Assembly: GCA_001790855.1 (NCBI GenBank)
Contig: MGDH01000012.1
Span: 1 to 15,841, forward strand
Origin: Candidatus Schekmanbacteria bacterium RIFCSPLOWO2_02_FULL_38_14
GTDB taxonomy: Bacteria > Schekmanbacteria > GWA2-38-11
Length of the DNA: 15,841 bases
Direction of reading: 5' to 3'
Shown: piece by piece, positions 7,812 to 12,648 of the stretch
How positions within the stretch are numbered: the stretch's first letter is position 1
How the letters are laid out: the number at the start of each line of letters is the position of its first letter
The notes under the pieces: generated by a model
The model's database searches: none
Told to the model about the DNA's origin: nothing
What the model saw: only the letters and a program-made list of their open reading frames with translations
Program-made: the position numbers and the translations under genes

Positions 7812-8387
7812 ATGCTTAAACGAATTTCATTTTTTCTCTCAACAGCGATTATTTTTTTCATCATTTCCGGTGTTTCGCTCGCTGCCACAATCCAGCTTCC
7901 ACAGACAGGGCAGACAAAGTGCTACAACAAATCAGGCACAGAGATTCCCTGCACAGGCACAGGGCAGGATGGAGAGATTCAGGCAGGCATTGGATGGCCC
8001 AGTCCGCGTTTTGCTGACAATGGGAATGGAACAGTAACAGACAACCTTACAGGGCTGATGTGGGTAAAATCTCCTGACAGCACTACTCGAAGATGGTCTA
8101 AGGCACTCGATTATTGCAACAATTTAAATTTTGCTGGTCACACAGACTGGCGTCTCCCAAATGTGAACGAACTTGAAAGCCTTGTAAATGCTGATGTGCC
8201 AGACACAGCCACATGGCTTAATACACAGGGCTTTACTAATGTGCAGTCATTCTACTACTGGTCGTCCTCTACTAGCGCCTACAATACAAACCGCGCGTGG
8301 GACGTCAATATGGGCAGTGGCAGCATGTACTACTTCATTAAGGGCTACTACGATGACTATGTTTGGCCTGTGCGCGCTGGACAGTAG
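7812..8387 (+). CDS. Secreted DUF1566 protein, probable DGR target 1
   Basis: The 191-residue product starts with a signal peptide (hydrophobic core about 7-22, likely cleavage after VSLA). A DUF1566/Lcl C-terminal-type domain follows, with the usual markers PRFADNGNGTVTDNLTGLMW (about 65-84), TDWRLPNVNEL (111-121) and a final VWPVRAGQ. DUF1566 belongs to the formylglycine-generating-enzyme/C-type-lectin-like fold, a common scaffold for ligand-binding proteins diversified by retroelements. Codons 147-182 form the variable region, at the extreme C terminus as in classical DGR targets, and two TAG stops follow. A strong AAGGAGG site lies 6 bases before the ATG. The N-terminal two thirds are paralogous to the protein at 8875-10011. 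The ligand is unknown; envelope or extracellular location is inferred from the signal peptide. Confidence 0.9.
   Translation: MLKRISFFLSTAIIFFIISGVSLAATIQLPQTGQTKCYNKSGTEIPCTGTGQDGEIQAGIGWPSPRFADNGNGTVTDNLTGLMWVKSPDSTTRRWSKALDYCNNLNFAGHTDWRLPNVNELESLVNADVPDTATWLNTQGFTNVQSFYYWSSSTSAYNTNRAWDVNMGSGSMYYFIKGYYDDYVWPVRAGQ
8250..8384 (+). other. DGR variable region 1 with GC-rich 3' flank
   Basis: Bases 8250-8357 (36 codons) align without gaps to 9319-9426 and differ at 30 positions. Examples of codon pairs are TTC/GAC, AGC/TAC, CGC/TAC, GAC/TTC, GGC/TAC and ATT/GGT. Each can derive from AAC or AAT by changing only adenines. The invariant 3' part (8358-8383), including GGCCTGTGCGCGCTGGACA, is identical in both copies and resembles an initiation-of-mutagenic-homing region. 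The template itself is not in this window, so the adenine rule is inferred from the pair. Confidence 0.8.
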
Positions 8388-8427
8388 TAGGTAATTTGGA
8401 AATTTGGTAATTTGAAAAATTTTTAAA

Positions 8428-8760
8428 ATGGCACAATATGAACATCTGCCAATATATAAGAAGGCAATGGATATATCCATATATATTGAAAACATAGTTA
8501 GAGGCTTTTCAAGGTATCACAAATATACGCTTGGGACAGACTTGAGGAATCTATCCCGTGAAGTTGTGAGGCTTATTATCCGGGCAAATTCTGAAAGAGA
8601 AAAATATTTAACACTTTGTACACTCCGGGATACTATTGAAGAACTCAAGGTAACTGTCAGGATATGTAAAGAGGTAAAGGCATTCAAGAGTTTTAATTCT
8701 TTTAAATATGCAGCGGAAGAAGTGATAAATTTGAGCAAACAGAAAAAGGGCTGTCTATAA
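8428..8760 (+). CDS. Avd-like four-helix-bundle protein (DGR accessory, bAvd/S23 family)
   Basis: The 110-residue product is almost wholly helical by appearance. It carries the family pattern: an N-terminal LPIYKKAMDISIYIENIV helix, then YTLGTDLRNLSREVVRLI, then a third helix with ANSEREKYLTL, then LRDTIEELKVTVRICKEVKA and FKYAAEEVINLSKQ. This matches the bAvd family of diversity-generating retroelements, whose founding member (phage BPP-1 Avd) forms a pentameric barrel, binds the reverse transcriptase and template RNA, and is required for mutagenic retrohoming. The usual Trp-Leu-Lys ending is replaced by GCL-stop. No ribosome site is evident. Its place between two putative DGR targets supports a DGR role over the unlinked S23/rRNA-intervening-sequence relatives. 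Confidence 0.85.
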   Translation: MAQYEHLPIYKKAMDISIYIENIVRGFSRYHKYTLGTDLRNLSREVVRLIIRANSEREKYLTLCTLRDTIEELKVTVRICKEVKAFKSFNSFKYAAEEVINLSKQKKGCL

Positions 8761-8855
8761 TTATTGTCAGAGAAACAGATAGATATGTTGGAAAAATTAA
8801 AGAACGTTTACCAGAGATGAAAATAACCAGCAATGAGAAAAATTATGTAGCATGA
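8761..8855 (+). pseudogene. Possible remnant of a coding sequence after avd
   Basis: One frame is open from 8706, overlapping the end of the Avd-like gene, to TGA at 8853-8855. It reads protein-like, with IIIVRETDRYVGKIKERL and then MKITSNEKNYVA. It has no plausible start of its own and no recognised family. It could be a leftover of the original cassette between avd and the second target, or chance. It has no resemblance to a template repeat or to reverse-transcriptase motifs. Confidence 0.2.
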
Positions 8856-8874
8856 CATTAAGGATTATATAACC

Positions 8875-10011
8875 ATGAAATATAAAGGAGACACAAATAT
8901 ACCTAAACGAATTTCATTTATTTTGTCACTGTTACTTATTTTATTCATGTCCTCCATTGTCATTGCAGGGACAATCGAGCTTCCAAAGACAGGACAAACC
9001 ACGAGCTATACAACAGGAGATGACGGTGATTTAGAAAGAGGAGTTGCATGGTCCAATCCAAGGTTTACTGATAACAGTAATGGAACAGTAACAGACAACC
9101 TAACAGGGCTTATGTGGTCAAAGAATGCAAATCTTCCTGATGGCTACATGACATGGCAGAATGCTCTTAATTATATAGCGTCTCTTAATAGTGGAAGTGG
9201 ATTAGCCGACTACCATGACTGGCGACTTCCAAACAAAAAAGAGCTTCAAAGCCTGATTGACTATTCAAATCATGAGCCTGCATTGCCAACAGGTAATCCT
9301 TTTACAAATGTGCAGTCAGACTACTACTGGTCGTCCTCTACTTACGCCGACAGTACCTACTACGCGTGGTTCGTCGATATGTACGATGGCTACATGTACT
9401 ACAACGGTAAGGACGGCGGCTATAACTATGTTTGGCCTGTGCGCGCTGGACAATCTGGGTCATTTGGTCATTTGGTTATTTCTGTTAGCCCCGCCTCAGG
9501 AGTTCAGAGCGGGAGCTTTGATGTTACTATAACTGGGACAAATTTTACCGGGGCTACAGAAGTAAGCTTTGGTTTAGGGATTACAGTAAACAGCTTCAAT
9601 GTGGATAGCGATACTCAGGTAACCGCAAATATCACGATAGATTCTTCTGCCGTTGCAGGCGCAAGAGATGTGAGTGTAACAAACGCAGATGGAACAGGGA
9701 AAATGCTCGGCGGGTTTGTAATTAAAAGCCCCTGTGGCAGTGATAAGCCTTCAATTACAAAACTCAGCAAGTTAAAAGGAAAGCCCGGGAATGTTATAAC
9801 CATTACTGGCAAGAATTTCTGTGATGAAGGAGGAGAGGTTTTGTTTGGAATCAAAAGCGCAGAGGTTTCTGTTTGGAGCAATCAAAGCATTTCTGTAAAA
9901 GTTCCAAATATTAAAGTTGGGAAATTGGGAAAAACTGTTTTAGTAAAAGTTAAATCTTCAAATGGCAAGATTAGCAATGTCAAAGCGTTTAAGGTATTGC
10001 CGACAAAGTGA
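8875..10011 (+). CDS. Secreted DUF1566 protein with two IPT/TIG-like domains, probable DGR target 2
   Basis: The 378-residue product has a signal peptide (hydrophobic 14-31, likely cleavage near VIAG). Its DUF1566 domain (about 35-193) shows PRFTDNSNGTVTDNLTGLMW, YHDWRLPNKKEL and VWPVRAGQ. Two immunoglobulin-like IPT/TIG-type domains follow, at about 201-284 and 292-376, marked by PASGVQSGSFDVTITGTNF and KGKPGNVITITGKNF. Variable region 2 covers residues 149-184, so here it is internal instead of C-terminal. A short Gly-Ser-Phe-Gly linker encoded by a near-repeat tract (9458-9478) joins the parts. The ATG at 8875 has AAGGA 10 bases upstream. Alignment with the paralogue at 7812 points to an ancestral start at 8899, now ATA, preceded by AAAGGAG. 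It converges on mutS with a 15-base gap. Confidence 0.88.
   Translation: MKYKGDTNIPKRISFILSLLLILFMSSIVIAGTIELPKTGQTTSYTTGDDGDLERGVAWSNPRFTDNSNGTVTDNLTGLMWSKNANLPDGYMTWQNALNYIASLNSGSGLADYHDWRLPNKKELQSLIDYSNHEPALPTGNPFTNVQSDYYWSSSTYADSTYYAWFVDMYDGYMYYNGKDGGYNYVWPVRAGQSGSFGHLVISVSPASGVQSGSFDVTITGTNFTGATEVSFGLGITVNSFNVDSDTQVTANITIDSSAVAGARDVSVTNADGTGKMLGGFVIKSPCGSDKPSITKLSKLKGKPGNVITITGKNFCDEGGEVLFGIKSAEVSVWSNQSISVKVPNIKVGKLGKTVLVKVKSSNGKISNVKAFKVLPTK
9319..9453 (+). other. DGR variable region 2 with GC-rich 3' flank
   Basis: This is the partner of 8250-8384: 108 variable bases (9319-9426), then an invariant 26-base block (9427-9452) identical to that in target 1. Encoded residues at variable sites are rich in Tyr, Asp, Gly and Asn, as expected when AAY codons are randomised without ever creating a stop. 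Aromatic and small residues are typical of DGR ligand-binding surfaces. Confidence 0.8.
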
Positions 10012-10026
10012 ACAGTGAATAGTTCT

Positions 10027-12648
10027 TTAAATCTTCTTCTTCAGTTCATCAAGTTTGTTTAATGCTTCAAGCGGGGTTAAGGAAGAGATATCAATTTTCT
10101 TAAGCTCTTCAATTACAGGGTTTGGCGGGTGGGTGAAGAGAGAAAGCTGGTCATTAACAGAGAGGGTGTTTTCTTTTTTTGAATGGGCAATAACTGGTTT
10201 CCCACCTTGGTCAAATTCTTTCTCTTCAAGATTTGCAAGCACCTCTTTTGCTCTTTCAATCACTTCCCTTGGAAGCCCTGCAAGCCTTGCAACCTGAATA
10301 CCATAGCTTTTGTCAGCTCCGCCTTCAACAATCTTTCTCAGAAAAATAATTTCATCGTTCCATTCTTTTACTGCGATGTTGAAGTTTTTGACTGCCGGAA
10401 GGGTTGAAGCAAGTTCTGTGAGTTCGTGGTAATGGGTTGCAAAGAGCGTTTTTGCGCCAATACGGTTTTTGTCATGGATATATTCTGCCACTGCCCAAGC
10501 AATGCTTAAACCGTCAAAGGTGCTTGTGCCTCTTCCTATTTCATCAAGGAGTATAAGGCTTTTTGAAGTTGCATTGTTCAGGATATTTGCAGTCTCCTGC
10601 ATTTCAACCATAAAAGTGCTTTGCCCTTTTACAAGGTTGTCAGCAGCTCCAACGCGGGTGAATATCCTGTCAACTATTCCAATGTGTGCTTCTTTTGCAG
10701 GAATGAAACTTCCCGTCTGGGCAAGAATCACAATCAGCGCTACCTGTCTCATGTAGGTTGATTTTCCTGCCATATTGGGACCTGTGATTATTATTACCTT
10801 GTTCTCCTCTGAATCAAGACAGGTATCATTCGGAATAAATCTTTCCTCTGGGTACAGGCTTTCAAGAACAGGATGCCTTCCATCCTTTATGCTTATAATT
10901 CCATCATCCTCTATTTCAGGTTTTATATAATTATTCCTGTAAGCAACCTCTGCAAGATTTGCCAGAACATCAAGAAGGGCGATTTTGTCTGATGTTTCCT
11001 TGATTCTGTTAATTTCACAAGCTACTTTATCTCTGATTTGTGCAAAGAGTTCAAATTCAAGCTCATTAATCTTTTCTTCAGCGCCTAAAATTCTTGATTC
11101 ATAATCCCTCAGCTCCTCAGTAATAAATCTCTCTCCTGTTGCGATGGTCTGTTTTCTTATATAGTCAGGAGGAACAAGGCGCAGGTTAGTCTTTGTAACC
11201 TCTATGTAATATCCGAAGATTTTATTGAACCTCACCTTTAAAGAGCTTATTCCTGTTCTCTCTTTTTCCCTTATTTCAAGGGCTGCAAGCCACGAAGTGG
11301 CGTTTCCCTTTATCTCTCTTAACTCGTCAAGCTCCTTGCTGTAACCGGTTTTGATAATCCCGCCTTCCTTTAAAACCAGCGGAGGGAAATCTTTTATGGA
11401 TGAATCAAGAAGAAAAAAGATGTCCTGCAAATCATCAAAGCCGGAAGCCACAGAGCTTAAAAACCCTGATTTGAATTTGTCAGTAAACTTTTTTATCTCT
11501 GGCAGGATTGAAAGGGATTCCTTTAAAGCCAAAAGGTCTCTTGCATTTGCTGTCTGAAGGCTGACCCTGCCTCCAAGCCTTTCAAGGTCATAGAGCTTTC
11601 CCATTAACTCCCGGAGAGAATCTCTCAGGCAGAATTCCTTTAAAAGCTCTTCAACGCTTTCCTGCCGTGCCCTTATCCCGTCAGTTTTTAATAAAGGATG
11701 GAGAAGCCATTTTCTCAGAGTTCTTGCTCCCATGCAGGTTCTGGTATGGTCTAATACTCCAAGCAGGGATTCTTCCTTAATCCCTTCTCTTATTGTTTGT
11801 GTCAGTTCAAGATTCGCCTGTGTGGTTTTATCAAGAACCATGTAATCGCCACGGTTAAACAGGGATATTTTATTGATATGTTCAAGCGGATTTTTCTGAG
11901 TCTCTTTCAAATAATGGATAAGGGCACCAGCGGCTGAGATTGAGGTTTTAAGTTCTTCGCACCCGAATCCTTCAAGGGAGGTTACTCTGAATTTATCAAG
12001 CAGAAGTCTTCTTGCATTTCCGTAGTCAAATGTCCAGTCATCATAGAATGTAAGAAAAAGCTGAGGGCTGAACATGGTTTTAAGCTTTTCTGTAAAAGCT
12101 TCTTCTGTGTTTTTCCGAAGAAGGATTTCTTTGGGAGAGAACCGCGATATCTCTGCTTCAAGCCTTGAAAGGCTGTTGGTCCTTTCAATCTCTTCAACCA
12201 TAAATTCCCCTGTTGTTACATCTATTACAGCTATTCCTATTTTTTCCATGCTCGTTGCAAGAGAGAGGATGAAGCTGTTGGTTTTAGGGTTAAGCAGTGC
12301 AGTATCAATGACTGTTCCCGGGGTTACAACCCTTACAACCTCACGTTTGACAATTTTTTTAGTTTTTTTGGGGTCTTCAACCTGGTCACATATGGCTACC
12401 TTGAATCCTTGATTGATAAGTTTATGCAGATAGGAGTTAACAGCATGGTAAGGTATGCCGCACAGGGGAATATCTTCTCCGATATGTTTTCCCCTTGTTG
12501 TTAGGGTAATCTGCAGCGCTTTTGATGCAACCTTTGCATCATCAAAAAACATCTCGTAAAAGTCACCAATGCGGAAAAAAAGAATTGCATCCTGATGCTG
12601 GCTTTTAATCCGGTGATATTGTTCCATCATCGGGGTGAGATTGTCCAT
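10027..12648 (-). CDS. mutS: DNA mismatch repair protein MutS
   Basis: The 873-residue product recognises mispaired and small looped bases and recruits MutL. The mismatch-wedge Phe-x-Glu motif is FYE at 30-32, inside FFRIGDFYEMF. The connector, lever and clamp regions fill the middle. The ATPase has Walker A GPNMAGKST (623-631), Walker B LILLDE with Asp702-Glu703, and the following GRGTSTFDG. FATHYHELTEL near 745 is the conserved His segment. A beta-clamp binding peptide QLSLF is at 834-838. Length and order are normal for MutS1. The gene follows lepB by 63 bases on the same strand and may share its transcript. The start ATG has only a weak AAGG about 8 bases upstream. Confidence 0.98.
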   Translation of the reverse strand: MDNLTPMMEQYHRIKSQHQDAILFFRIGDFYEMFFDDAKVASKALQITLTTRGKHIGEDIPLCGIPYHAVNSYLHKLINQGFKVAICDQVEDPKKTKKIVKREVVRVVTPGTVIDTALLNPKTNSFILSLATSMEKIGIAVIDVTTGEFMVEEIERTNSLSRLEAEISRFSPKEILLRKNTEEAFTEKLKTMFSPQLFLTFYDDWTFDYGNARRLLLDKFRVTSLEGFGCEELKTSISAAGALIHYLKETQKNPLEHINKISLFNRGDYMVLDKTTQANLELTQTIREGIKEESLLGVLDHTRTCMGARTLRKWLLHPLLKTDGIRARQESVEELLKEFCLRDSLRELMGKLYDLERLGGRVSLQTANARDLLALKESLSILPEIKKFTDKFKSGFLSSVASGFDDLQDIFFLLDSSIKDFPPLVLKEGGIIKTGYSKELDELREIKGNATSWLAALEIREKERTGISSLKVRFNKIFGYYIEVTKTNLRLVPPDYIRKQTIATGERFITEELRDYESRILGAEEKINELEFELFAQIRDKVACEINRIKETSDKIALLDVLANLAEVAYRNNYIKPEIEDDGIISIKDGRHPVLESLYPEERFIPNDTCLDSEENKVIIITGPNMAGKSTYMRQVALIVILAQTGSFIPAKEAHIGIVDRIFTRVGAADNLVKGQSTFMVEMQETANILNNATSKSLILLDEIGRGTSTFDGLSIAWAVAEYIHDKNRIGAKTLFATHYHELTELASTLPAVKNFNIAVKEWNDEIIFLRKIVEGGADKSYGIQVARLAGLPREVIERAKEVLANLEEKEFDQGGKPVIAHSKKENTLSVNDQLSLFTHPPNPVIEELKKIDISSLTPLEALNKLDELKKKI

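Follow-up and report, generated by a model that had tools for sequence, protein, structure and literature searches.

Two neighbouring lectin-like genes in the window, the 15,841-nt stretch analysed here and one entire, short contig, share a segment whose differences resemble those left by a diversity-generating retroelement (DGR), which raises the questions of whether such an element shaped these genes and whether it is still at work. Our results indicate that the locus is very probably a chromosomal DGR of the Avd and RT-MutS_I type with two flanking lectin-like targets, from which the template repeat (TR) and nearly all of the reverse transcriptase (RT) were lost by one internal deletion. 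The order in the window is variable region 1 (VR1), avd, the last RT codons, and variable region 2 (VR2).

Both targets carry an Lcl_C domain (PF07603), formerly DUF1566, and a genome search revealed no Lcl_C genes in the assembly beyond these two. Target gene 1 (7812–8387, + strand) encodes 191 aa with a signal-peptide-like N-terminus and Lcl_C (E 6.7e-33), while target gene 2 (8875–10011, +) encodes 378 aa with Lcl_C (E 1e-36) and TIG repeats (PF01833, E 1.1e-14). The reading frame of gene 2 was called from an in-frame ATG at 8875, upstream of position 8899, where the counterpart of the gene 1 start (ATG CTT AAA CGA ATT TCA at 7812) is an ATA behind GGAG; the start codon of gene 2 was possibly lost or relocated. 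The AlphaFold model of target 1 (pLDDT 90) has a C-type-lectin-like fold, with the Legionella Lcl C-terminal domain as best PDB match (8q4e, Z 13.4). TvpA (2y3c, Z 9.2) and Mtd (1yu3, Z 8.3), both variable proteins of DGRs, were also matched. VR1 corresponds to residues 147–182, the C-terminal part of the Lcl_C domain, so that the protein has the C-type-lectin-like architecture with a C-terminal VR found in DGR targets. Foldseek/VIA matches to animal C-type lectins hold at the fold level only. Both targets are inferred to be secreted and ligand-binding.

VR1 (8250–8357, +) and VR2 (9319–9426, +) align without gaps at an offset of 1069 and in the same reading frame. Their 30 differences are distributed 16/13/1 over codon positions 1/2/3, third positions being nearly spared (binomial P = 8e-5 for at most one third-position change among 30), whereas the codon-aligned upstream flanks of the same genes differ at 47/29/66 positions, the usual third-position excess. 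Eighteen of the 19 differing codons can be derived from AAC or AAT by changes at A sites alone; the 19th is ACA/ACC, whose third base might also be a template A. Upstream of the segment, 18 bases contain a single difference between the genes, and downstream, 26 bases (8358–8383 and 9427–9452, both +) are identical and have 58% GC compared to 41% in the window, making them candidates for the initiation of mutagenic homing (IMH). Our recount thus agrees with the preliminary description on the gapless segment with one third-position difference in 30, on flanks with the opposite preference, on the identical GC-rich bases that follow, and on nearly every differing codon being reachable from AAC or AAT.

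Adenine specificity could be assessed against real templates, which we took from complete DGRs of other phyla, fetched through the avd gene and aligned to the window. At the positions that distinguish VR1 from VR2, these templates carry A in 25/31 (L063), 25/32 (L064), 24/31 (L065), and 26/32 (L067) cases, compared to just 22–26 of about 120 sites where the VRs agree (Fisher p 4e-10 to 2e-9). Sliding the L065 template by 1–3 columns as a control reduced the count to 3–15 of 30–31. The VR differences therefore lie at template adenines, as judged from relatives' templates.

Between the targets lies an ORF (8428–8760, +) that went unnoticed in the preliminary description. It is avd, the DGR accessory variability determinant: its bAvd match (PF22296, E 3.3e-9) is slightly under the model cut-off, and over 110 aa its product has 53–80% identity to the Avd proteins of complete DGRs. 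The gene is full length except that its last codons appear to have been replaced, its product ending in QKKGCL* compared to QxEGW[IL] in relatives, with the change at 8740–8757. Three further weak bAvd matches in the genome (two on C36, one on C6) were below the family cut-off.

Directly after avd, the frame ending at stop 8853–8855 encodes QTEKGLSIIIVRETDRYVGKIKERLPEMKIT..., which shares 66% identity with residues 665–693 of the L063 RT reading frame (E 1.5e-6) and matches positions 459–492 of the 494 in the RT profile (E 6e-4). Judged by these alignments, 8736–8852 (+), which overlaps the avd end in another frame and was likewise missed before, is a short RT C-terminal remnant, comprising the last ~35 codons from the end of the MutS_I-like part and nothing more of the RT. 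Intact RTs of relatives carry a C-terminal MutS_I part (PF01624), and in DGRs this type of accessory domain is known as MSL (PMC10053308). A second RT-profile match, at 12343–12636 (−), was discarded as an RT fragment because it represents the N-terminus of chromosomal mutS, and relatives' RTs contain MutS_I. Where the sequence switches from avd-like to RT-like (8740–8753, +), the relatives' avd end AGAACGAGGGCTG and the window's AGAAAAAGGGCTG match in 11 of 13 bases. This suggests a short-homology deletion, with the ancestral junction reconstructed from relatives whose Avd proteins are 67–80% identical; judged from the same relatives, the missing stretch, from the end of avd to that of RT, would measure roughly 1.7–2.2 kb. 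The presence of avd and of the RT scar shows that a DGR once occupied the locus and that its core was removed by internal deletion. Together, the adenine enrichment, the VR statistics, avd, the RT scar, and the intact relatives confirm the DGR origin of the locus.

The assembly (2.68 Mb, 43 contigs, estimated 99.43% complete and 0.89% contaminated) yielded no RVT_1 match at E values up to 10, while the same search detected DGR-type RTs with the GxxxSQ motif in other genomes. With a complete DGR RT as query, the whole assembly returned only the RT C-terminal scar and both VR genes, the latter matching through the template read in the RT frame. Template searches with a VR and with a relative's TR recovered only VR1 and VR2 above chance-level short matches. 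Neither a template repeat nor a DGR-type RT with GxxxSQ and [YFL]xDD motifs was thus found in the genome, the RT being represented by its last ~35 codons only. The preliminary description had named a template repeat near an RT elsewhere in the genome as its own check, and by that measure an active DGR is unsupported. Its broader claim that the genes are DGR targets holds in that the VRs are genuine and their A-specificity is confirmed with relatives' templates, but not as regards a partner template and RT in this genome.

We propose that, before the deletion, the RT would have introduced errors at adenines while copying the template, and VR1 and VR2 would have been replaced by the resulting cDNA from their common 3' end, as inferred from the DGR family and the A-specific pattern. 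A single internal deletion from the avd 3' end to the RT 3' end would then have removed the template and nearly all of the RT. Given that no template or enzyme would be left after this event, each target gene would be fixed at its last variant and exposed to drift or selection as any ordinary gene. Diversification at the window locus has thus most likely stopped. The core loss is most likely recent, since all VR differences but one are at codon positions 1 and 2 and the non-hypervariable sites are still nearly identical.

The strongest competing explanation, although improbable, is that the DGR is still active, with RT and template hidden in an assembly gap or carried by other members of the population and acting in trans on both VRs. 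As in intact elements, VR1 and VR2 hardly differ beyond their adenine-type sites, the avd frame is open over its full length, and targets distant from their RT are known (PMC3521204); moreover, given 43 contigs at 99.43% completeness, RT and template might lie in a gap. However, an assembly this complete contains neither RT nor template, and the RT core and template are absent precisely at the position they occupy in relatives, where the RT tail is left. The contig is also continuous across the junction, and the about 11/13 bases common to the inferred sides fall short of what an assembler would typically join on. More improbable still is an assembly artefact as the cause of the missing TR-RT core. 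VR1, VR2, and TR would be near-repeats that could confuse assembly, and the window is an entire short contig, but the junction links the end of avd to that of RT, outside the VR/TR repeat, and the missing RT sequence occurs nowhere else in the assembly. Finally, ordinary lectin-like-domain paralogues under diversifying selection without any retroelement, conceivable because Lcl_C is common without DGRs (as in genome G002, where 16 Lcl_C matches occur without any to RVT_1), are already refuted by avd and the RT scar between the genes and by differences that coincide with the adenines of relatives' templates, while the flanks show the opposite codon-position pattern.

The core deletion remains the preferred reading and is supported by comparison to relatives. 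Four complete Avd-type DGRs with DUF1566/Lcl_C targets (L064, L065, L068, and L080) have the same avd, target family, and VR reading frame as the window, and likewise place two VR-bearing targets around the core; all hold VR, avd, TR, RT, and a second VR in a single cluster, in the order VR1, avd, TR, RT, VR2 in L064, L065, and L080, while in L068 the first VR sits between avd and TR. The window differs from them in having no template repeat and only the last ~35 RT codons. In the RT reading frames of L063 (371–2455), L064 (8484–10139), and L065 (1227–3584), the TR precedes the RT domain in frame, hence the Pfam Lcl_C fragment at their N-termini.

Two Nitrospirota loci show what appears to be the window's layout in further decay. 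L103 (Hainich Nitrospiria) consists of a VR gene followed by a frameshifted avd, an inserted repeat, only positions 460–492 of the RT profile, and a second intact VR gene; it independently reproduces the arrangement of VR gene, broken avd, RT tail, and VR gene, in support of a core deletion. In L107, avd is cut after about residue 57 and lies between two VR genes, with no RT. Adenine-type and other VR differences number 29/3 in the window, 20/2 in L103, and 27/13 in L107, and the three loci possibly form a decay series. The genomes of L103 and L107, of unreported completeness, yielded no DGR-type RT; their RVT_1 matches have the group-II-intron-type QGxxxSP rather than GxxxSQ. The L103 junction (8320–8400) also contains a GC-rich, GATGGGAGAGGGCTGGGGTGAGGGG-like repeat reminiscent of the MITE-like degradation reported in PB-PSB1 (PMC10907252). 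A KSB1 locus (L071, 7810–8912) has a VR, avd, TR, and a second truncated avd copy with no recognisable RT within the locus, and 17/18 of its VR differences are at template A; it may represent another stage of core loss.

Among 62 avd loci, 25 had a near-complete RT, 11 were too near a contig edge, 5 had RT fragments, and 21 had no RT within the locus, so that partial or no recognisable RT (26 of the 51 loci not cut by a contig end) was equally common as near-complete RT (25), in a rough survey that includes several truncated avd fragments among its matches and in which the target gene was checked in part of the loci. Given this parity, counts based on RT genes may overlook many proteins that were once diversified.

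A direct literature search for DGR RT loss found none, the precedents lying within DGR surveys. RT-less DGR targets are nonetheless already known, and the window holds a DGR remnant rather than an intact DGR. In Treponema denticola isolates, targets without an RT retain adenine-type VR changes after RT and TR loss (PMC4891356); that loss was inferred by isolate comparison, while the window keeps avd, an RT 3' scar, and a readable junction. Diversification components near VR genes have also been lost or degraded in cyanobacteria (decayed parts at all3226; PMC7517822), in PB-PSB1, where redundant parts of multiple DGR loci were lost (PMC10907252), and in Pseudogulbenkiania, where decayed parts accompany a second RT that remains (PMC3521204). 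In contrast to the redundant losses of PB-PSB1 and the second RT of Pseudogulbenkiania, no RT was found in the window genome. The DGR of Bordetella phage BPP-1 (mtd, avd, TR, RT) shares with the window a C-type-lectin-fold target and avd, but belongs to a phage and is complete and active. Because avd and both targets persist beside the scar, the window offers an unusually clear example of core deletion, in which targeted hypermutation would have been switched off by one short deletion that left avd and the diversified lectin-like proteins in place.

Removal of diversification parts after selection of an optimal variant has been suggested for cyanobacteria (PMC7517822). We regard it as possible, although doubtful, that TR-RT loss with both targets kept is a recurrent, selected end point, the lock-in of a useful binder, and not simple decay; the window, L103, and L107 could then be stages of lock-in. 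DGR remnants make the idea of a mutator discarded once a good binder has been found testable by selection analysis of frozen VRs.

Searches for avd gave no match in plasmids and just three distant matches in viral contigs. No intact DGR was found in genomes G001–G003, of which G001 is only 70% complete. In G001, from the same family as the window genome, an Lcl_C gene (L153, 4785–5549) has conserved parts with 80–85% DNA identity to target gene 1 and a VR-like C-terminus, and another contig (L154, 1–400) is cut off at the point where an Lcl_C gene would enter its VR. In G002, from the same order, the Lcl_C matches are mostly tandem pairs in one frame, apparently an Lcl_C expansion without a DGR.
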